A stretch of DNA of 64,000 bases, taken from assembly GCF_001008165.2 (NCBI RefSeq), contig NZ_CP011452.2, positions 1,054,001 through 1,118,000 on the forward strand, read 5' to 3'. The position numbers and the translations under genes are program-made. The DNA comes from Croceibacterium atlanticum. GTDB taxonomy: Bacteria; Pseudomonadota; Alphaproteobacteria; Sphingomonadales; Sphingomonadaceae. Positions 31,336-43,573 of the stretch are shown here, piece by piece. Numbering within the stretch: the stretch's first letter is position 1; every line of letters begins with the position of its first letter. The notes under the pieces are model-generated. The model saw only the letters and a list, made by a program, of their open reading frames with translations, did no database searches and was not told the DNA's origin.

Positions 31336-32031
31336 ATGAGCTCTTGCGATACATGCGTTGTCCGCAACCGGGCAATCTGCGCCGCCCTCGACAACAAGGA
31401 GATCGCGGCGTTGAGCGCGATCGGTCGCCGGCGCAAGCTGGAAGCCGGCGAACCCCTGATCTGGGAAGGCGACGATTCGGTTCTGGTCGCCAATGTGATC
31501 GAAGGCGTGCTCAAACTGTCGACCGGCACGGAAGATGGCCGCGAACAGATCGTCGGCGTCGTCTATCCTTCCGATTTCATCGGCCGGCCTTTTGGCGCAA
31601 CCACGCGCCATTCGGTGACGGCACTGACTGATGCGAATGTCTGCGTATTCTCACGCGCGGATTTCGACGGGTTTGCGAGCGAACATCCTGCGCTTGAGCA
31701 CAAGCTGCTGCAACGCACCCTTTCCGAACTGGATCGCACGCGCCACTGGATGCTGCTTCTCGGCCGCAAGAGCGCGACGGAAAAGCTGGCGACCTTCCTG
31801 CTCGACATGTCCGAACGGCTCGTCCAGCCGGGCTGCGAGAGTGAGAGCGGTGCCCTGGAATCGTTTGAATTGCCCTTTTCGCGCCAGCAGGTCGCGGATC
31901 TTCTCGGGCTGACGATCGAAACGGTAAGCCGGCAGTTCACCCAGCTCAAGCGTGATGGAATTGTCGAACTTCCGTCACGCCGCGCGGTCGTGATACGTGA
32001 CCGCGCGACGCTGGAAGCTCTGGCCGGCTAG
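31336..32031 (+). CDS. fnrL: FNR/FixK-type oxygen-responsive regulator
   Basis: The 231-residue Crp/Fnr protein has a set of Cys suited to a [4Fe-4S] oxygen sensor: Cys4, Cys7 and Cys15 at the N terminus and Cys103 in the effector domain. The C-terminal helix-turn-helix (SRQQVADLLGLTIETVSRQF) has the E-x2-S-R contact residues (Glu195, Ser198, Arg199) that read TTGAT half-sites. Two anaeroboxes sit about 0.8 kb downstream, between ompW and hemN. Under oxygen limitation it should activate haem synthesis and adaptation genes. Its stop is 1 base from the convergent ompW stop. Confidence 0.92.
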   Translation: MSSCDTCVVRNRAICAALDNKEIAALSAIGRRRKLEAGEPLIWEGDDSVLVANVIEGVLKLSTGTEDGREQIVGVVYPSDFIGRPFGATTRHSVTALTDANVCVFSRADFDGFASEHPALEHKLLQRTLSELDRTRHWMLLLGRKSATEKLATFLLDMSERLVQPGCESESGALESFELPFSRQQVADLLGLTIETVSRQFTQLKRDGIVELPSRRAVVIRDRATLEALAG

Positions 32032-32873: not shown

Positions 32874-32887
32874 TTGATCGAGCGCAA
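32874..32887. promoter_or_regulatory. FNR/FixK-type anaerobox upstream of hemN
   Basis: TTGATCGAGCGCAA matches TTGAT-N4-CGCAA and ends 34 bases before the hemN ATG. It shares 12 of 14 bases with the box at 32790. Activation by FnrL under low oxygen is inferred. Confidence 0.65.
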
Positions 32888-32921
32888 TGAGTCTTCCGCC
32901 CAGCCCTGCAAATTCGCTCTC

Positions 32922-34235
32922 ATGTGGCCATATCATCCAGAACTGCTTGCAACGCCCGTTCCGCGTTACACCAGCTTCCCGACTGCTGCCGAGTTCGGAC
33001 CCGGCATCACGCCTGAAGATCATGCGCGGGCGCTCGCCAATGCACATGGCGACATATCGCTCTATCTCCACATCCCCTTCTGCGAGAAGATCTGCTGGTA
33101 TTGCGGCTGCAATACCGGCGCGGCCAATCGCAAGCAGAGGCTGGCCAGCTATCTCGATTCGCTGCACACGGAAATTGCGCTGGTTTCCGACATGCTGCCA
33201 CGCGATGCCCGGATTCGCAGGATCGCCTTTGGCGGGGGTAGCCCCAATGCGATCGCCCCGACCGATTTCGCGCGGCTGTTCGATGAATTGCTGCTGCAAC
33301 TCCCGCTCGACAATCCGACCGTTTCCATAGAGCTGGATCCGCGAACGCTGACACGCGAATGGACTGCCGTATTGCGCGCCGTGGGCGCCACGCATGCCAG
33401 CCTGGGCGTGCAGACCTTCGCCCCGCATCTTCAGGAGGCAATCGGCCGGGTCCAGCCACTGCAGATGATCGAACAGAGCGTGGAAATCCTGCGCGCTGGC
33501 GGCGTGAATTCAATGAATTTCGATCTGATGTACGGCCTTCCGGGCCAGAGTGACGAGGATCTGCGCGACTCGCTGGAACGCGCGGCCGGCTTCGAGGCGG
33601 ATCGCATTGCCCTGTTCGGTTATGCCCATGTGCCCCATCTCCTGCCGCGCCAGCGCAAGATCGATGCGAGCGCCCTGCCCGGGCCGGACGAGCGATTCCA
33701 CATGGCTGAAAGCGGGCATGATCAGCTTGTCGATGAAGGCTATGTCGCCGTCGGTTTCGATCACTTCGCCCTGCCCGGCGACCCACTGGCCCAGGCCGCG
33801 ATAGCCGGCCGGCTGCATCGCAATTTCCAGGGCTTCACCGAAGATCCGGCCAAGGTTCTGATCGGTCTGGGCGCATCCGCGATCAGCAGTTTTCCCGAAC
33901 TACTCGTCCAGAATGACAAGAATTCCGGCCGCTATCGCATGTCCCTGTCGCAGAACCGTTTGCCGACCTCCGTCGGCAAGGTCCGCTCGGCAGATGACCA
34001 GCGGCGCGGGGCAATAATCGAGGCGCTGCTCTGCTCCGGCAAGTCGGATGTGGAGCCGGCGATGCTGAATTCGGCGCTGGACCGGCTTCAGCCCTATCTT
34101 GATGCCGGGCTTTGCGTGGCCAGCGATGGCACGCTCGAAATCGTGCCGCGCGGCCTGCCTTATGCGCGCAGCATCGCCGCTTCATTCGATCCCTATCGCC
34201 AGCACTCACTGCGCCGGTTCAGCTCGGCGGTCTAG
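32922..34235 (+). CDS. hemN: oxygen-independent coproporphyrinogen III oxidase
   Basis: HemN is a radical-SAM enzyme that decarboxylates coproporphyrinogen III without oxygen. The 437-residue product has YTSFPTA, the iron–sulfur motif HIPFCEKICWYCGCNT (C-x3-C-x2-C), FGGGSPNAI and LMYGLPGQ. The start is ATG 32922 (MWPYHPELL); the open frame before it contains the anaerobox, so it is not coding. Pairing with an adjacent fnrL is common in alphaproteobacteria. Confidence 0.95.
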   Translation: MWPYHPELLATPVPRYTSFPTAAEFGPGITPEDHARALANAHGDISLYLHIPFCEKICWYCGCNTGAANRKQRLASYLDSLHTEIALVSDMLPRDARIRRIAFGGGSPNAIAPTDFARLFDELLLQLPLDNPTVSIELDPRTLTREWTAVLRAVGATHASLGVQTFAPHLQEAIGRVQPLQMIEQSVEILRAGGVNSMNFDLMYGLPGQSDEDLRDSLERAAGFEADRIALFGYAHVPHLLPRQRKIDASALPGPDERFHMAESGHDQLVDEGYVAVGFDHFALPGDPLAQAAIAGRLHRNFQGFTEDPAKVLIGLGASAISSFPELLVQNDKNSGRYRMSLSQNRLPTSVGKVRSADDQRRGAIIEALLCSGKSDVEPAMLNSALDRLQPYLDAGLCVASDGTLEIVPRGLPYARSIAASFDPYRQHSLRRFSSAV

Positions 34236-34288: not shown

Positions 34289-34383
34289 GCTTGCGCACAA
34301 TCGCGCACAGGCCCGCACAATCCGGGCAAAAAGAATGGCGGCGCGCCTTGTGACGCACCGCCGGAGGGAGGGAAGCTTGTCTG

Positions 34384-35841
34384 TCAGGCGGCCAGCTTGT
34401 CTCCGGCCGCCCAATTGCCGTGCAGGCCTTGGCGCAGACGGATGGGCAGCTTGGCCCGTGCAATCGGCCCTTTCGCGACATCCAGCGCATCGAAGATGCA
34501 CAGGTCCGAATAATTGGTGACGTGATTGTCCACCAAGGCGATCAGATAGCCATCGCCTTCCGGCGCATCCGCGCTGCGCGGAATGAAACATGGTTCCTGT
34601 ATCGCGCCATCGGGGCCGCACCACCAGGTCTTTTCTTCACCCGTTTCGTGGTCGTAATGCGTCAGCGAATTTATCACCCCGGCAAAGGGTCCCGGAGGGC
34701 CGTTGTAGGGCTTGTCGAAATCATAAGTGATCATCCAGCCGTGGCGATATTTCTTCCCGGCAAAGCGATCGTCGATACGAGGGAATTCGCCCGGCATCCG
34801 GCCGATCGGTTCGGCGCTGGTGATCTCGTCGCTATTGGCGGCAAGGTCCACGGTGAAGCGCGTCAGGATAGTGACGGCTTCCTCCGGATTGAACGGGCGG
34901 CCATCCTTTTCCGGGAAGAACGGCAGGCTGCCGGTCTTGCTGATCGGCAGGTCGAAATGGATCTTCGTGCCGTCCTGATAGGCATTCATCACGTGGCAGC
35001 CGCAAACGCTCGGCTCCAGCTTGAACCAGCGGATGTCGCTGCCATCCCCGTCACGGCGCAGCACGCCGAGATAGAAGGGCAGTTCGCGGTCGTAATAGAA
35101 ATGCGGCCGGTGTTCTTCCAGCGTCTGCCAGTCCGAATGATAGGGGGAGACATTGAACACCGCATAATCGCCCGCGATGCAGAAATCGTGCAGCATGGTG
35201 TAATACGGCACGGAGAATTCCGCCTTGCGCACCACCTTGCCGGCCGAATCAATTTCAAAATAGTGGCAGGCTTCCGTCAGCGGCCCGTCAATCGCATAGC
35301 CGAAGCCGCAGAAATTGCCGGTTTCATGGTCGATCTTGGGATGGGCGGTGAACGGCTTGTCCCCCAGCACGCCGCCGAAATCGGTATAGCCTTCGGTATC
35401 GAGACCGTTCTTGTCCATCAGCAGGCACGGACTGTCCTCCTTCATGGCGAACAGCTTGCCGGCATGGACCAGGACATTGGTGTTCGCCGTGCCGCGGATC
35501 TTGCCCTTCACGCTGGGATCGTCGGTCAGCGGGTTGCGATACTGGCCGAACAGGCTCTTGCCCGCCTCGTTTTCCAGTTTCCACTTATCCGTCTTCGCAT
35601 AACGCTGACGGAAGGCGATCCTGCCGTCCTTGATGCGAAACATGGAAACCATGCCATCGCCGTTGAAGAACTGGTCATTGCCATATTTCGGCGGAAACTG
35701 CGGATCGGGATGGACGCGGTAGAAGGCCCCGTCCAGCTCTGGCGGCACTTCGCCTTCAATCTCGAGATCGGCGATATCGCCTTCGAGACGGACGAGCCGG
35801 AGCACATCCTTGTATAGCGGTTCTTGCGGAAAATGGACCAT
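34384..35841 (-). CDS. lignostilbene-type dioxygenase (carotenoid oxygenase family)
   Basis: The family cleaves C=C bonds with non-haem iron. The 485-residue protein has four iron-ligand His at 167, 218, 283 and 474 (AHPK, MLHDF, CHVMN, LHGNW), close to the spacing in NOV1/LsdA. Phe59, Tyr101 and Lys134, the residues that recognise the 4-hydroxystilbene ring in bacterial lignostilbene dioxygenases, are all present at those positions. This argues for cleavage of lignostilbene, resveratrol or similar 4-hydroxystilbenes to two aromatic aldehydes, rather than carotenoids. There is no signal peptide. The AAGGAGAG site is just downstream of a perfect palindromic operator. The gene sits next to ligBA but appears to be a separate transcript. 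Confidence 0.93.
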
Positions 35842-35856: not shown

Positions 35857-35868
35857 TAACGATCGTTA
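35857..35868. promoter_or_regulatory. perfect palindromic operator upstream of the dioxygenase gene
   Basis: TAACGATCGTTA is a 12-bp perfect palindrome ending 16 bases before the ATG and overlapping a possible -10 region (TATCAT on the minus strand). Its size and centre resemble TetR-family operators. No TetR gene lies in this window, so the regulator is unknown. Confidence 0.6.
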
Positions 35869-35923
35869 TGATACGAGTCGCACAGGTGAGATTCCTTGAC
35901 CCCGATCAATTGAACCGGGAAAC

Positions 35924-35957: not shown

Positions 35958-36812
35958 TCACGCGCTGACGGCTTCGCGCGTTTCGACCAGCATGGTCGCC
36001 GCCGCCGTATTGGAAATCGGAATGTGATAATTGCGTGAAATCTCGCGGCAATCATCGCCCAGCGCTGCGCGTGCGGCGATCCAGTTGAGGATTTCAACGC
36101 CCTGGCTACCCGCTAGTTCGACGATTTCCAGCGTGGAATGCTTCAGCAGGGCATCCGGGTCAGACACGAGATTATCCATGCAAAACTTGTCATAATCGAC
36201 ATTCAGATGGCCGGCGCGCTTGCCTTCCAGCTGGTGCGACAGGCCGCCAGTGCCCATCACCACGATCTTTTCATCGCCTTCCCACGCGCGCAGGGCGCGG
36301 CCGACGGCCAGACCCAGATCGCGGCAGCGTTTCGGGCTGGGCAAGGGATGCTGCACGGTATTGATGGCAATCGGCACCAGCTTGACCGGGAAGGCTTCCG
36401 CATCCGGCCAGGCCAGTTCGAAGGGAACGGCCACGGCATGATCCACCAGCATCTTCTGGCACATCACCGGATCAAACTCTGATTCGACCACTTCTTCGAT
36501 AATCTGCCATGAAAGTTCGGGGATGCCCGGATAAGGTTTGGGAAAGGCAATGCCCCAGCCTTCATCTTCGTGTCGATATTCCGGCGCCGCGCCAATGGCG
36601 AAAGTCGGCATCGCGTCGAGGAAGAAGTTCAGGCCATGATCGTTGTAGAACACCACGGCCACGTCCGGCTTCACGCGATCCAGCCAGCGATGGACCGGCT
36701 GAAAACCATCGAAAAAGGGCTTCCAGTAGGGATCCTGCTGCAGGCCCTTGGCAATTGCGTTGCCGATGCCGGGAACGTGGCTGGTAAAAATGCCGCCGCT
36801 GATAGTGCTCAC
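35958..36812 (-). CDS. ligB: class III extradiol dioxygenase, large (beta) subunit, LigB-type
   Basis: LigB carries the active site of protocatechuate 4,5-dioxygenase-type enzymes, which open catecholic rings beside the diol. The 284-residue protein keeps the iron ligands His12, His59 and Glu240 and the catalytic base His193 (GGLSHQLEG), at nearly the positions known for SYK-6 LigB (12, 61, 242, 195). Overall sequence is clearly divergent from SYK-6 LigB and from gallate dioxygenases, so the substrate (protocatechuate, gallate, methylgallate or other) is open. It overlaps ligA by 4 bases. No ligC, ligI, ligJ or ligK is in the window. Confidence 0.9.
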   Translation of the reverse strand: MSTISGGIFTSHVPGIGNAIAKGLQQDPYWKPFFDGFQPVHRWLDRVKPDVAVVFYNDHGLNFFLDAMPTFAIGAAPEYRHEDEGWGIAFPKPYPGIPELSWQIIEEVVESEFDPVMCQKMLVDHAVAVPFELAWPDAEAFPVKLVPIAINTVQHPLPSPKRCRDLGLAVGRALRAWEGDEKIVVMGTGGLSHQLEGKRAGHLNVDYDKFCMDNLVSDPDALLKHSTLEIVELAGSQGVEILNWIAARAALGDDCREISRNYHIPISNTAAATMLVETREAVSA

Positions 36813-37195
36813 GCGAATTCTCCTTCGCGAATGGTGACGCCATGCGAAAGCAGCATGGCCTTGAATTCATCGACCGACATGCCGGTCTGCAATGCGCCGA
36901 GATCCTGCACGTTCAGGCCCAGAATGCCGGCCAGCTTGGCGAGGTAATAAACATTGCCGCCAGCTTCGAGCATGGCCAGCACGTCCCGTTGGCGCACGGC
37001 GTCCTTCTGCTCTTCGGTCAGATTGTATCTGGCCATGTAGGCTTCCTCATCCTGTCGGAAAGCCTCGCGATTTTCGGCATGATTGAACGAATAGCACATG
37101 TCGTTCAGCGCAAAGCCGCGCATGGCGAGATCGCCATCGAACGGGTCGGTCCCCGGTATCAGACGCCTGCGCGCCCCACTGCCCAAAACGGTCAT
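36809..37195 (-). CDS. ligA: class III extradiol dioxygenase, small (alpha) subunit, LigA-type
   Basis: The 128-residue helical subunit covers the active site of LigB. Family features are visible: FNHAENREAFRQDEEAYMARYNLTEEQ, then GGNVYYLAKL and TGMSVDEF. ATG 37195 was chosen over 37207 because GGAGG lies 6 bases before it. The stop overlaps the ligB start, so the subunits are made in equal amounts. It is divergent from the MFS gene across about 130 bases. Confidence 0.9.
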   Translation of the reverse strand: MTVLGSGARRRLIPGTDPFDGDLAMRGFALNDMCYSFNHAENREAFRQDEEAYMARYNLTEEQKDAVRQRDVLAMLEAGGNVYYLAKLAGILGLNVQDLGALQTGMSVDEFKAMLLSHGVTIREGEFA

Positions 37196-37246
37196 GATTG
37201 CCTCCATTTGTCGAGGCTGACATGCTCCGCAGGCAGCGCAAAGTCC

Positions 37247-37260
37247 TTGAGCAAGGTCAA
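37247..37260. promoter_or_regulatory. inverted repeat in the ligA/MFS intergenic region
   Basis: TTGA-N6-TCAA in the divergent control region resembles a degenerate FNR/Crp-type or other dimeric regulator site. The short arms make chance occurrence possible. Confidence 0.3.
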
Positions 37261-37324
37261 AACCGCCCGCCTCTTGCCGCGCGCCGCGGTTTCGGGCCTA
37301 ATGCCCGGCGGAGAGGGGAAAGAG

Positions 37325-38644
37325 ATGACTGGATCGACGGCGGCACTGTCACCGGCGCGTAGCTGGTGGGCGATCTTCGTTTTCATGATCGCGCTGATGT
37401 TCAACTATCTGGACCGGCAATTGCTGACCCTGCTGGTCACGCCGATCAAGGCGGATCTGCAGGTTTCCGACACGCAGATCAGCCTGCTGGTCGGTTTTGC
37501 CTTTGTCCTTTTCTATGTTCTTGCCGGCATTCCGGTGGCGCGCCTTGTCGATCGGGGGCCGCGCAAATGGATCGTCGGCTTCGGCATCTTTTTCTGGAGC
37601 CTGATGACCGCCGTCTGCGGCCTGGCGCACAGTTTCTGGCAACTTGCGCTGGCCCGCATGGGCGTGGGCATCGGTGAAAGCTGCAACGCGCCGGCCACTT
37701 ATTCCATGACATCGGACATGTTCCCGCGCGACCGGCTGGCCCAGCCCATGTCGGTTATCGGCATCGGCGTTGTGGCAGGCAGCGGGATGGCACTGTTGGT
37801 GGGCGGCTGGCTTATCACCTGGCTGACCGAGATCGGACCGCAAAGCTTCCCGCTGGTGGGCACGCTGAAGCCCTGGCAGATGACTTTCATCATCGTTGGC
37901 CTGCCGGGCGTGTTCTGGGCGCTGTTGCTGCTCGCCACCGTTCCTGAACCGCCCCGCCGCGAACTGGCCGGCACGCAGACGCCCGGCTTCACATCGGTGA
38001 TCGGTTATCTCTGGGGCCTGCGCACGACCTATGCGCCGATGTTCCTGGCCAATGGCATCAAGGCCATGCTCAGCTTCGGGATCGCGATATGGAGCCCGGT
38101 CTTCTTCGAACGGAAATTCGGCTTCGCGCCGGGCGAACCGGGCCCGATCCTGGGGATCATATCGCTGATCGTATCCCCGATCGGCCTGTTGCTGGGCGGA
38201 TATATCGCCAATCGCATGGCTCAGGCCGGATACAAGGATGCCAATATGCGCATGGTCTGGCTGGTCACCATACCGCTGATCCCGGTCGCCATCTTCTATC
38301 CACTGGTGGAAAGCGTGACTTTCGCCTTCATCCTTTTCGGCGCGTCCCTGTTCCTCGGCTCGATGGGATCAGGCCCGGCCAATGCCGCCATCCAGGCGAT
38401 CACGCCGGGCCGGATGCGCGGCACGACGACGGCGCTCTATATCGCGATCTACAATGTCATCGGATACGGCCTCGGCCCGCTGATCGTGGGGATGCTGAAT
38501 GACAATGTGTTCGGGGAAAGCGGCGTGGGCTATTCCATGGCGGCGCTGGCCTGCTTTGCCGGGCCGACCGGATTGATCATGGCCTGGCTGGCCCTGAAAC
38601 CCTATCGCCGCGCAATAATAGCAGCAGAAGCAAGGGGGGATTGA
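37325..38644 (+). CDS. MFS transporter (spinster-like)
   Basis: The 439-residue protein has 12 predicted membrane spans. Motifs include FNYLDRQLLTLLVTPIK in the first span, the motif-A variant VARLVDRGPRKW between spans 2 and 3, and ARMGVGIGESCNAPA. The spinster-like branch of MFS is common beside sphingomonad catabolic genes. ATG 37325 follows GGAGAGGGG. Divergence from ligAB and a 3-base gap to the dehydrogenase gene suggest uptake or efflux of the aromatic substrate; this is inference. Confidence 0.87.
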   Translation: MTGSTAALSPARSWWAIFVFMIALMFNYLDRQLLTLLVTPIKADLQVSDTQISLLVGFAFVLFYVLAGIPVARLVDRGPRKWIVGFGIFFWSLMTAVCGLAHSFWQLALARMGVGIGESCNAPATYSMTSDMFPRDRLAQPMSVIGIGVVAGSGMALLVGGWLITWLTEIGPQSFPLVGTLKPWQMTFIIVGLPGVFWALLLLATVPEPPRRELAGTQTPGFTSVIGYLWGLRTTYAPMFLANGIKAMLSFGIAIWSPVFFERKFGFAPGEPGPILGIISLIVSPIGLLLGGYIANRMAQAGYKDANMRMVWLVTIPLIPVAIFYPLVESVTFAFILFGASLFLGSMGSGPANAAIQAITPGRMRGTTTALYIAIYNVIGYGLGPLIVGMLNDNVFGESGVGYSMAALACFAGPTGLIMAWLALKPYRRAIIAAEARGD

Positions 38645-38647
38645 AGC

Positions 38648-39481
38648 ATGGCATCAATCGCGGTGATCGGCGCCGGGGCGATGGGTTCGGGCGTCGCCAA
38701 ACGGCTGCATGACAAGGGATGCGAAGTGCTCACCCTGCTGGGCGGCCGCAGCAACGCGACACGGGAACGCGCCGCCCATGCCGGAATGCAGGACGCAACG
38801 CTGGAGCAGATCGCCAGCGCGGAACTGATCCTGTCCATCGTCCCCCCGGCCCAGGCCGTGGCAGTGGTGGAAGCTCTCGCGCCAGTTTTTGCAGGTGGAA
38901 ACGGGCCGATCTTCTGCGATGCCAATGCCCTGCCACCCGAAGCAAAGAAGGATCTGGCGTCACGGGTGGAAAGGCTCGGCGGCCAGATGGTCGATGGCGG
39001 GATTATCGGCGGCCCGCCAGCCGATGGCTATGACGGGCCGCATCTCCATCTTTGCGGAGAAGGGGCGGAACAGGTTGCGGACATGCTGTGCCGATACGGC
39101 ATCGATGCCCGCGTCCTGCCGGGGCCGATTGGAACCGCCGCAGCGCTGAAAACCTGTTTCGGCGCGATCAACAAGGGAATTATCGGCCTGACCACGGCCA
39201 TGTTGCTGGCTGCCCAGCGGCACGGCGCGGCGGAAGAATTGCGCAAGGAAATGGACTGGATGCTCGGCTGGCTGATCGAAAGGCAGCGTGTGGCCATCCC
39301 GAAAATGTACCCCAAGGCCTATCGGTGGGATTCCGAAATGCACGGCATTTCCGATTTCCTGTCCAGCGAAGATCCCGCGGCGGCCAAAATCTGGGAAGGA
39401 CTGGGCGAATTCTACACCGACCGAGCCCGGGCGCAGGAAGCGGGCGAGGAACTGGAGGCGCTGAAGAAGTTGCTGGCCTAG
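38648..39481 (+). CDS. NAD(P)-dependent oxidoreductase with DUF1932 C-terminal domain
   Basis: The 277-residue protein has an N-terminal Rossmann fold (IAVIGAGAMGSGVAKRL, 6-phosphogluconate/3-hydroxyisobutyrate dehydrogenase type) and a C-terminal DUF1932 helical domain containing the active-site-like segment LKTCFGAINKGI. The substrate is not known. It is 3 bases after the MFS gene and so in the same operon. It could oxidise or reduce an intermediate of the ligAB pathway, but is not the usual LigC dehydrogenase. Confidence 0.87.
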   Translation: MASIAVIGAGAMGSGVAKRLHDKGCEVLTLLGGRSNATRERAAHAGMQDATLEQIASAELILSIVPPAQAVAVVEALAPVFAGGNGPIFCDANALPPEAKKDLASRVERLGGQMVDGGIIGGPPADGYDGPHLHLCGEGAEQVADMLCRYGIDARVLPGPIGTAAALKTCFGAINKGIIGLTTAMLLAAQRHGAAEELRKEMDWMLGWLIERQRVAIPKMYPKAYRWDSEMHGISDFLSSEDPAAAKIWEGLGEFYTDRARAQEAGEELEALKKLLA

Positions 39482-40501: not shown

Positions 40502-43501
40502 TCAGAATGACTGGCTGACGCCCAGCTTGGCCGTAAAACCGATAGGGTCGGCTGTGAACGGATCGAAATTCTGATCCAGCCGCGCAAATGGCGGTTTCGC
40601 ATCCAGCAGGTTGAACAGGGCGAGCGAGATATGCGTGCGCTCCGCCGGCGACCAGTTCCAGGCCAGGTCCAGGCTGTCGAAAGCGCCGATATGCTTGCCC
40701 CTGGTCAGTGCCGCGCCGCCCAGTGACGCGTCGGGCCCGAAAATGCTTTCGCGCTGATCGGTATAGCCGGACACATGGTTCAGCTGCAGGCGCAGCGTAT
40801 GATCGCCCCATTCGCCTTGCAGCCATGCCCGCCCCTTCAGGCGCGGTATCGGATAGGCGGTCGTCTGGTAATTGAGCTTGCCCGCAGCATCGAAGGCGGA
40901 TTGCACTGCGATGCCTTCCACCGTCACTTCGCCCACTTCATATTCGAAGACATAGCTGCCGGATGCACCGATCTGCATCCACGCATCTCCCAGCGCGAAA
41001 TCATAGCTGGCGCTGGCATCCAGCCCGCTGGTCCTCACATCGGCGGAATTGAAGGCATAGGTGGACAGCCTCTGGACATTGGCGGCCGAACAAATGTCGC
41101 CGGAAAATGTGAAGCGGGCCTCCAGCCCGGCAAAGGCCGGATCGCCGCAATTGGCTGAACCGCTGGCACCGAACATGGCGGCAACCATGCCGCTGACGGG
41201 TTCGCTTTCGATCGGGCCGGAAAATTCATAGCGCCAATAATCCAGGCTTGCCCGGAAGGGCCCGCTATCGGCCACCATTCCCGCATTCCATGTCGTGGCG
41301 CTTTCCGGGTCCAGCTTCGGATTGGCGAGCACATCCACCGCGCGGAAGGCGCCGCCGATAAAGGTCAGGATGACAAGATCGGCCGCGGTATTTTCCGGCG
41401 GCGGCCCGCGGAAGGTGGTGCCCACGCCGCCGCGCAGGGCCAGCCAGTCATTCGCCCGGTAACGGATGCGCAATTGCGGATCGAAGGTGGATCCGACAGA
41501 ACCGCCATAATCTTCATACCGGGCCGAAAGCTGCGCATCCAGCCGGTCCGTTACCGGCAGTTGCAACTCCGCAAATCCAGCCCACACATCGCTTGAAACG
41601 CGCACATCGCGGTTGGAACCGATAAAACCGAGCGCGCCCGTTTCCGGCGTGCAGCTGGCATCTGGATCAAGCACGGAGGCCGGACAGGGATAGAGGTCGA
41701 GATTATTGCCGCCCTCATACGCCCTGGCGTAACGGTCCCGCCGATACTGGCCGCCAAGGGCGAAGTGGATCTCGCCGCCGGGCAGGCTGATGCCGGTTCC
41801 GCCAGCCAGCACCAGATCGCCGACCCATTGCCGCGTATTCGCCACCCGGCCCCACATATTGTAGAAGTCGCCAATGGTGGAAACGTCATTCACCAGCCCT
41901 TCGCCCGGCTGGGTGCTGAGCCCGGCAACCGGGCTGCCATTCCCCGCATAATTCGGGTTTGCCTGCCCCGTCAGTTGGTTGGCGGGTATCGCGGTGGAAA
42001 AGGGATTGAACCAGCTGCAGCCATTGGTGCCGGCCAGCGCCGCCAGTTCCTGATCTGTCAGACCTGCACGGGATGCGGCCGTGGCATAGGCACAATCCGC
42101 GCCGCCAAAGCCTGCCATGGCATTCTGCAGGAGATCGACGAAACTGTCACCGACAACGAAATAGCGATCATATTCGCTATAGGTGACGCCTCCTGTCAGT
42201 TCGAGGCTGCCCCCCAGATCTGCCCGCACCTCCCCGGTAAACTGATATGCGTCGGAATTGCGCGGCAGGCGCGCCGTGTTGCGACCATTGTCGAACAGGG
42301 GGTTGCCGGAAAGCAGCATTGGCCGGAACCGCACCGGATAGGCCAGCGCCGGGGCTTGCGGCGCCCCACTCGCATCGGTCGAACAGCTCGCATCCGCATA
42401 ACGCGCGCAATAATCTATCAGGGCCGGCGCATATTCGGGGATGACGAACAGGCCGCTACCGCCGAAAGCCGCATCGGATGAAGGCGCAATCGTTGGAAGA
42501 AAGCTGGGAGAAGTGCTGAGAACGGTTTTGGTGTGGCCATAAAGGGCGGTGGCGCGCAGTTCGACCCGTTCACCCAGCGGCAGCTCCATATCGGCAAAAA
42601 GCTGGAAACGGTCTTCCGGCTCCACCAGATTGGTGAAACCCAGATAATTGGACAGGCACAGATCATTCGCGGCGAGAAAAGCGCCGGCATCCGCGCATCC
42701 TTCATCGGCGGTGAAGGCAACGCCGTTCTGCGTCGCGTCATAATCGAAATTGCCCGGATTGCCGCCACCGGACCAGCCGCCTTGCGGATTTTCGGCATAG
42801 CGGCGCAGCACGTGATCCCGGTCCCCGGCCTGCAGCTCGTTCCGCCGCTGATATCCGCCCGACAGGAAAATCCGCGCCGGCCCAATATCGCCGCCCCAGG
42901 ACAAGGCCGCCGTCCAGTCTCCGTCCGACCCATCGATATGGCGATAATCGGCGGAGGCCAGGAAACCCTGCTGGTCGGTCCGGGTGATGAAATTGACCAC
43001 ACCGGCGATCGCATCGGAGCCATAAGTTGCCGCCGCGCCATCTTTGAGGATTTCCACCCGCCCGATGGCCGATGACGGCATCAGATTGACATCGACGAGC
43101 GGGATATTGCCCGCCCCGCTTGCCACCATCCGCCGGCCATTCAGCAGAACCAGCGTGCGCTGCGGGCCAAAGCCGCGAAGATTGACCGAGGCGGAACCCT
43201 GATTGAACTGGCTGCGCGGATCGAACTGGCTGGAATCGCCAATCACGCCGGCCGATACTGCCAGCCGCCGGGTGATATCGAGGATGCTGGGCGAGCCTTG
43301 CCGTGCCAGATCCTCTGCGCCGATCACATCGACCGGGGCAATCGCATCCTGCGGCCCGCCCCGGATCAGCGTGCCGGTGACCACGATCGGATCGCCCTTG
43401 TCCGCTACTGCATCCTGGGCAGAAGCGGCCGGACTGTAACCGGCAGCCGCAATAGCCGAAGCCGCGACGCCTGCCGCGCAGATAATTCTGTGCTTTTTCA
43501 T
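40502..43501 (-). CDS. TonB-dependent outer-membrane receptor
   Basis: The 999-residue receptor has a signal peptide (MKKHRIICAAGVAASAIAAA…SAQ), a TonB-box-like DPIVVTGTLI, a plug domain (NLRGFGPQRTLVLLNGRRM, VEILKDGAAATYGSDAIAG) and a large barrel ending SQSF. The pattern is that of sphingomonad oligosaccharide, oligopeptide or siderophore-type receptors, and the ligand cannot be told. Paired Cys in extracellular-loop regions (ADEGCADAGAFLAANDLC, CARYADASC) suggest disulfide-braced loops. A GGGGAG site precedes ATG 43501. Confidence 0.93.
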   Translation of the reverse strand: MKKHRIICAAGVAASAIAAAGYSPAASAQDAVADKGDPIVVTGTLIRGGPQDAIAPVDVIGAEDLARQGSPSILDITRRLAVSAGVIGDSSQFDPRSQFNQGSASVNLRGFGPQRTLVLLNGRRMVASGAGNIPLVDVNLMPSSAIGRVEILKDGAAATYGSDAIAGVVNFITRTDQQGFLASADYRHIDGSDGDWTAALSWGGDIGPARIFLSGGYQRRNELQAGDRDHVLRRYAENPQGGWSGGGNPGNFDYDATQNGVAFTADEGCADAGAFLAANDLCLSNYLGFTNLVEPEDRFQLFADMELPLGERVELRATALYGHTKTVLSTSPSFLPTIAPSSDAAFGGSGLFVIPEYAPALIDYCARYADASCSTDASGAPQAPALAYPVRFRPMLLSGNPLFDNGRNTARLPRNSDAYQFTGEVRADLGGSLELTGGVTYSEYDRYFVVGDSFVDLLQNAMAGFGGADCAYATAASRAGLTDQELAALAGTNGCSWFNPFSTAIPANQLTGQANPNYAGNGSPVAGLSTQPGEGLVNDVSTIGDFYNMWGRVANTRQWVGDLVLAGGTGISLPGGEIHFALGGQYRRDRYARAYEGGNNLDLYPCPASVLDPDASCTPETGALGFIGSNRDVRVSSDVWAGFAELQLPVTDRLDAQLSARYEDYGGSVGSTFDPQLRIRYRANDWLALRGGVGTTFRGPPPENTAADLVILTFIGGAFRAVDVLANPKLDPESATTWNAGMVADSGPFRASLDYWRYEFSGPIESEPVSGMVAAMFGASGSANCGDPAFAGLEARFTFSGDICSAANVQRLSTYAFNSADVRTSGLDASASYDFALGDAWMQIGASGSYVFEYEVGEVTVEGIAVQSAFDAAGKLNYQTTAYPIPRLKGRAWLQGEWGDHTLRLQLNHVSGYTDQRESIFGPDASLGGAALTRGKHIGAFDSLDLAWNWSPAERTHISLALFNLLDAKPPFARLDQNFDPFTADPIGFTAKLGVSQSF

Positions 43502-43573
43502 GGTTCTCCCCGGTGCCGGCCATTGCCTCCACCGGACAAGGCGGTCAACTTCGCCGTAGTGCAAACGGCCATC

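Follow-up and report, generated by a model that had tools for sequence, protein, structure and literature searches.

The closest described relatives of the gene studied here are the lignostilbene-α,β-dioxygenases LsdA of Sphingomonas paucimobilis TMY1009 and LSD1 of Sphingobium sp. SYK-6, the latter encoded by SLG_37540 (PMC8191317), followed by NOV1 (Saro_0802) of Novosphingobium aromaticivorans and LSD4 of SYK-6. A role at the proximal 4-hydroxy ring has been described for Phe59, Tyr101, and Lys134, and Ser283 of LSD4 contacts the distal ring (PMC8191317). For the ring-cleavage genes alongside, the described counterpart is LigAB2 of N. aromaticivorans (Saro_1233/1234), which slowly opens gallate, protocatechuate, and 3-methylgallate in vitro; cells grow on vanillate or syringate without it, and the authors suggested a different function in vivo (PMC8091115). 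SLG_37520/37530 of SYK-6 have been equated with it. On the regulatory side, experiments in Sphingopyxis granuli yielded the Fnr consensus TTGAc/t-N4-g/aTCAA, with the boxes of ccoN, hemN2, and other genes centred at or near -41.5 (-41.5 and -42.5 for the first two; PMC7713065).

The window, that is, the whole 64,000-nucleotide stretch of Croceibacterium atlanticum DNA that was analyzed, carries the following features around lsd:

31336..32031, plus strand: FnrL/FnrN-like CRP/FNR regulator with an N-terminal CxxC (NF045989, 241 bits, below the cut-off of 300)
32874..34235, plus strand: hemN-like gene, convergent with lsd (product identity from sequence reading and position)
34337..34362, minus strand: terminator-like hairpin and T-run just downstream of lsd (a consensus match only, not above shuffle expectation)
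34384..35841, minus strand: lsd, LsdA/LSD1-type lignostilbene-α,β-dioxygenase of 485 aa, in which C280-x-C282-H283 and L306 are specific to its clade
35857..35868, unstranded: palindrome TAACGATCGTTA in the -10/start-site region of lsd
35868..35873, minus strand: -10-like TATCAT of lsd, 22 nt after the Fnr-type box
35896..35909, minus strand: Fnr-type box TTGATCGGGGTCAA upstream of lsd, with class II spacing
35958..36812, minus strand: ligB2, encoding the catalytic subunit of a class III extradiol dioxygenase of LigAB2 type, with metal ligands H12, H61, E242, and H195 kept
36809..37207, minus strand: ligA2, small-subunit gene sharing 4 bp with the start of ligB2
37136..38644, plus strand: MFS transporter, divergent from ligA2 (true start probably near 37320)
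37247..37260, minus strand: Fnr-type box TTGACCTTGCTCAA upstream of ligA2, match 8/10
38648..39481, plus strand: 6-phosphogluconate-dehydrogenase-like/DUF1932 protein, NAD-binding

The lsd open reading frame is intact (35841 to 34384, minus strand), with an ATG start and a stop codon within its span, and ligB2 and ligA2 lie directly upstream on the same strand, with 116 nt between ligB2 and lsd. It is near certain that this gene encodes a lignostilbene-type dioxygenase of the LsdA/LsdB clade, and the enzyme itself is a further member of a known family. Our best reading, to which we give a probability of roughly 70%, is that the locus constitutes an Fnr-activated (low-oxygen) stilbenoid-cleavage unit of LSD and LigAB2. 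According to this model, the iron(II) LSD, whose actual substrates we infer, would hold a 4-hydroxyphenyl or guaiacyl ring via F59/Y101/K134 and split the interphenyl C=C with O2 into two aromatic aldehydes. LSD and the LigAB2 extradiol dioxygenase would form one conserved unit within one pathway, with the LSD product feeding LigAB2 once oxidised and demethylated. At low oxygen, a regulator of the Fnr family, most probably the product of the adjacent fnrL gene, would bind both promoters and activate lsd and ligA2 via class II boxes, and the TAACGnnCGTTA palindrome, located at the lsd start site, would probably be bound by a second regulator, possibly a repressor. With these two O2-consuming enzymes activated in this way, scavenging of lignin-derived phenols would continue when O2 is scarce.

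The association between the two enzymes recurs among related genomes. Of 13 family genomes that were sampled and encode an LSD of the window clade, 12 had the ligB-lsd pair, and ligA-ligB-lsd with a convergent hemN nearby was found at 10 of the 13 clade loci that came from named genomes. The SYK-6 LSD at 4042825-4044273 also adjoins ligA2-ligB2 (4041391 onward) and carries a perfect Fnr-type box, but in the order lsd-ligA-ligB, which two further genomes share, whereas the window has ligA-ligB-lsd; here, unlike at the LigAB2 loci of N. aromaticivorans and SYK-6, lsd comes after ligB2. Judging by the chromosomal order of the eight SYK-6 homologues and by 99% identity to LsdA, this SYK-6 gene is LSD1; the locus tags SLG_37520/37530 were assigned to its ligA2/ligB2 by position beside it. 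In SYK-6, the strand that carries lsd1-ligA2-ligB2 also holds, downstream of them, a TonB-dependent receptor gene (L182:5018-7171), possibly for outer-membrane substrate uptake, and a large TonB-dependent receptor gene also occurs near the unit in the window (40502-43564) and, likewise, in one close relative. The hemN gene stands beside ligAB2 in relatives both with and without lsd. The MFS and DUF1932 genes adjoin ligAB2 in just a single close relative and were for this reason rejected as a general part of the module; the canonical lig cluster contains a gene whose product is a distant (28%) relative of the DUF1932 protein.

An alternative explanation is that this adjacency is positional only, lsd having landed beside ligAB2 in an fnrL-hemN neighbourhood with no pathway in common. 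Many relatives do carry ligAB2 beside hemN without lsd, lsd frequently has its own promoter, and the earliest-branching window-clade LSD (L009/L195) is encoded away from ligAB2, yet with a perfect Fnr-type box. On the other hand, the pair has been kept in two arrangements, with lsd upstream or downstream of it, and a constraint placing both LSD groups (window and LSD1) in one clade was weakly rejected (p-AU 0.031, for test groups picked after a quick tree had been seen), which makes two separate recruitments to the same ligAB2 locus possible and leaves a single ancestral lsd-ligAB2 operon for both lineages weakly disfavoured. We regard a purely positional association as unlikely.

The earlier note had named the neighbouring pair ligBA and had proposed that side-chain cleavage is thereby connected with ring opening. 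Our analysis upheld this proposal in part: the pair has persisted in two lineages, which differ in the order of the genes, and Fnr-type boxes stand before both lsd and ligA2, but the neighbour is LigAB2 and not the main protocatechuate dioxygenase. The window LigB was best matched by NF009901 (PRK13364; 463.5 bits, cut-off 290), the subfamily to which the LigB of LigAB2 likewise belongs, and stayed below the cut-offs of the other LigB models, including NF009903 (PRK13366; 269.8 bits, cut-off 317). For LigA, the best model was NF009918, itself named protocatechuate 4,5-dioxygenase subunit alpha, and TIGR02792 gave 100 bits, under its cut-off of 108.6. In the LigB tree, the window protein and its SYK-6 homologue beside LSD1 (70% identity) formed a separate clade with support of 100/100, far from SYK-6 LigB. 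H12, H61, E242, H195, and S269 are kept, positions that in LigAB enzymes generally include the metal ligands and the catalytic His. The genome contains six LigB-family genes, among which a full canonical 4,5-cleavage cluster, ligI-U-K-J-A-B-C, is located elsewhere (C1:1983-1991k; the ligI, ligJ, and ligC assignments follow from position and resemblance to the families), together with a gallate dioxygenase gene at 3178k and, at 3346k, a second canonical lig pair, and a role of the window pair as the main protocatechuate 4,5-dioxygenase was accordingly rejected. The cluster holds no aldehyde-oxidation or O-demethylation genes that would bridge stilbene cleavage to a catechol-type substrate; since an LSD releases aldehydes, and vanillin must be both oxidised and demethylated before it can serve any LigAB-type enzyme, a direct hand-over is conjectural.

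The order upstream of lsd is TTGATCGGGGTCAA, 22 nt, TATCAT, and TAACGATCGTTA, which matches the class II Fnr-activated promoters of S. granuli TFA in both box sequence and distance to the -10; the box equals the consensus derived there, and the spacing of such promoters (box about 21-22 nt before the -10) is found at lsd. The ligA2 box of the window fits the consensus less well (8/10). A strict pattern, TTGAY-N4-RTCAA, sought within 150 bp upstream of CCO genes, occurred in 16 of 23 LSD1/LSD2/window-clade genes, SYK-6 LSD1 and LSD2 included, versus 2 of 74 other CCO genes (shuffle expectation, 0.007; Fisher 4e-11, a value that overstates the significance because upstream regions of related genomes are non-independent samples). 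Nearly all of these boxes lie 21-22 nt before a -10-like hexamer, and the box has been kept in the clade while its flanks diverged; of the 18 lsd genes in the window clade, 6 have no strict box in their own upstream regions, and some of these 6 stand directly behind ligB2. Upstream of ligA2, a box with at least 8/10 matches was present at 30 of 33 loci (shuffles: mean 2.0, maximum 6), compared with 0/33 for ligB2 as an internal control and 0/9 for canonical ligA genes. Across the 3.47 Mb of the genome, only four instances of the pattern have class II spacing, and ccoNO is also preceded by a perfect box there. Whereas the published Fnr regulon table of TFA is without stilbene or extradiol dioxygenases (PMC7713065), the boxes described here precede genes for both. 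Collectively, the computational case for Fnr-type regulation of lsd and ligA2 is strong.

A class II Fnr-like pattern at C1:1213015-1213052 (L208) is flanked by genes for a DUF6644 protein and a PQQ dehydrogenase, and small membrane-protein genes resembling those at L208 adjoin ligAB2-hemN at another locus (L188). The TAACGnnCGTTA form of the palindrome is kept in most clade members with their own lsd promoter, and TAACGATCGTTA/TAACGnnCGTTA is a possible repressor operator; as a genome-wide regulon signal, TAACGnnCGTTA was unsupported by counts (9 sites vs 13 for the reversed pattern).

The locus could also serve ordinary lignin-dimer catabolism, in which LSD would convert lignostilbene to vanillin, host enzymes would carry this to protocatechuate, and LigAB2 would be a spare protocatechuate/gallate dioxygenase, the boxes having no oxygen meaning. 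Such a scenario accords with the preference of LSD1 for lignostilbene (PMC8191317), with the in vitro activities of N. aromaticivorans LigAB2 on ring substrates (PMC8091115), and with the presence of pobA, VanA-type genes, and the canonical ring-opening cluster in the genome. It is nevertheless rather unlikely in our view, as the boxes outlast their diverged flanks, keep the class II distance, and hardly occur outside this LSD clade and ligA2, with canonical ligA lacking them.

TTGA-type half sites are common to the CRP/FNR family, and the boxes might instead be bound by another member of that family responding to a signal other than oxygen. More than one Fnr-like protein is possible per sphingomonad (PMC7713065). 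However, ccoNO in the same genome is preceded by the same consensus, and the locus adjoins fnrL-hemN here and hemN in many relatives, which renders a different regulator distinctly unlikely.

The enzyme assignment underlying the proposed Fnr-activated unit is supported by several lines of evidence. The lsd product matched the RPE65/CCO family profile at 416 bits and the NCBIfam equivalog NF053778 ('lignostilbene-alpha,beta-dioxygenase') at 840.9 bits, above the cut-off of 800, and it is 60% identical to LsdA/SYK-6 LSD1 and ~51% identical to NOV1 and LSD4, with which it shares the fold and proximal-ring residues. Alignment to SYK-6 LSD4, LSD1, and NOV1 located the four iron-ligand histidines (167, 218, 283, and 474) and F59, Y101, and K134 exactly where the earlier note had placed them, and N120, T121, E135, E352, and E416 are also conserved, including the second-shell Glu residues of the LSD group (E135, E352, and E416). 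This residue match follows from the 60% overall identity to LsdA and, reflecting homology, provides no independent evidence. Moreover, all eight SYK-6 homologues possess Y101 and K134, even LSD5-8, whose identity to the window protein is 35-39%, so that these two residues mark the wider LSD group and say little on substrate preference; among the three residues, only F59 splits the LSD1-4/NOV1 group from LSD5-7.

Trees comprising all eight SYK-6 LSDs, NOV1, LsdA, the window protein, and the three further CCOs encoded in its genome grouped the window LSD with LSD1-LSD4/NOV1, apart from LSD5-8 and the distant CCO outgroup. Its own clade, which adjoins LSD1 and LSD2 and differs from that of NOV1/LSD4, contains 18 near relatives (identity 72-87%), which come from Altererythrobacter, Altericroceibacterium, and Erythrobacteraceae related to these. 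The structure model (pLDDT 89.7) was closest to LsdA (6ojr; TM 0.96, rmsd 1.6 Å), followed by LSD4 and NOV1, with apocarotenoid oxygenases at TM ~0.8. Placement among the apocarotenoid oxygenases, which the earlier note had named as a refutation, did not occur, and such an identity, for which only the common superfamily fold speaks, is virtually excluded by the tree, HMM, residues, and fold search. The genome's own NOV1-type enzyme is encoded by a separate gene at C1:2892k. Another CCO, LSD5-like, lies at C1:2981501-3001000 (L111) among GMC oxidoreductase, SnoaL-like, SDR-like, and MFS-like genes; this region has two TAACGnnCGTTA palindromes in intergenic regions and resembles a dimer-catabolism cluster.

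In contrast to the fold, iron ligands, and F59/Y101/K134 shared with LsdA/LSD1, the distal pocket of the window clade is distinctive. Cys282 and Leu306 were common to every clade member checked; the former position is Gly in LSD1 and Ser283 in LSD4, and the latter is Phe in LsdA/LSD1 and Phe307 in LSD4. A second cysteine (C280) yields an invariant C-x-C-H at the iron ligand His283. These changes, beside the conserved F59/Y101/K134, indicate a standard proximal ring site and an altered distal site.

Within the literature searched, from which most subscription journals were missing so that absence is no proof of novelty, we found no paper naming SLG_37540/37530/37520, none treating lignostilbene jointly with Altererythrobacter, and no description of a conserved low-oxygen LSD-LigAB2 unit. 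A low-oxygen switch before O2-consuming enzymes is unexpected and directly testable. More tentatively, and on balance doubtfully, LsdA-type LSDs and LigAB2 could represent an Fnr-activated, possibly high-O2-affinity, low-oxygen branch of sphingomonad lignin-phenol catabolism, which might stand to the canonical LSD/LigAB enzymes as cbb3 oxidase does to aa3; in the window clade, the enzyme may be tuned to, or protected in, a low-oxygen redox range by its invariant C-x-C-H next to the iron. SYK-6 possesses eight LSDs, and the adjacency of LSD1 and LigAB2, its recurrence in Erythrobacteraceae, and the boxes lead us to propose, as a physiological role for both, that the two enzymes work jointly when oxygen is limiting. 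If true, this would show how O2-dependent lignin catabolism persists in poorly aerated plant litter and would guide the choice of homologues for low-aeration bioprocesses.
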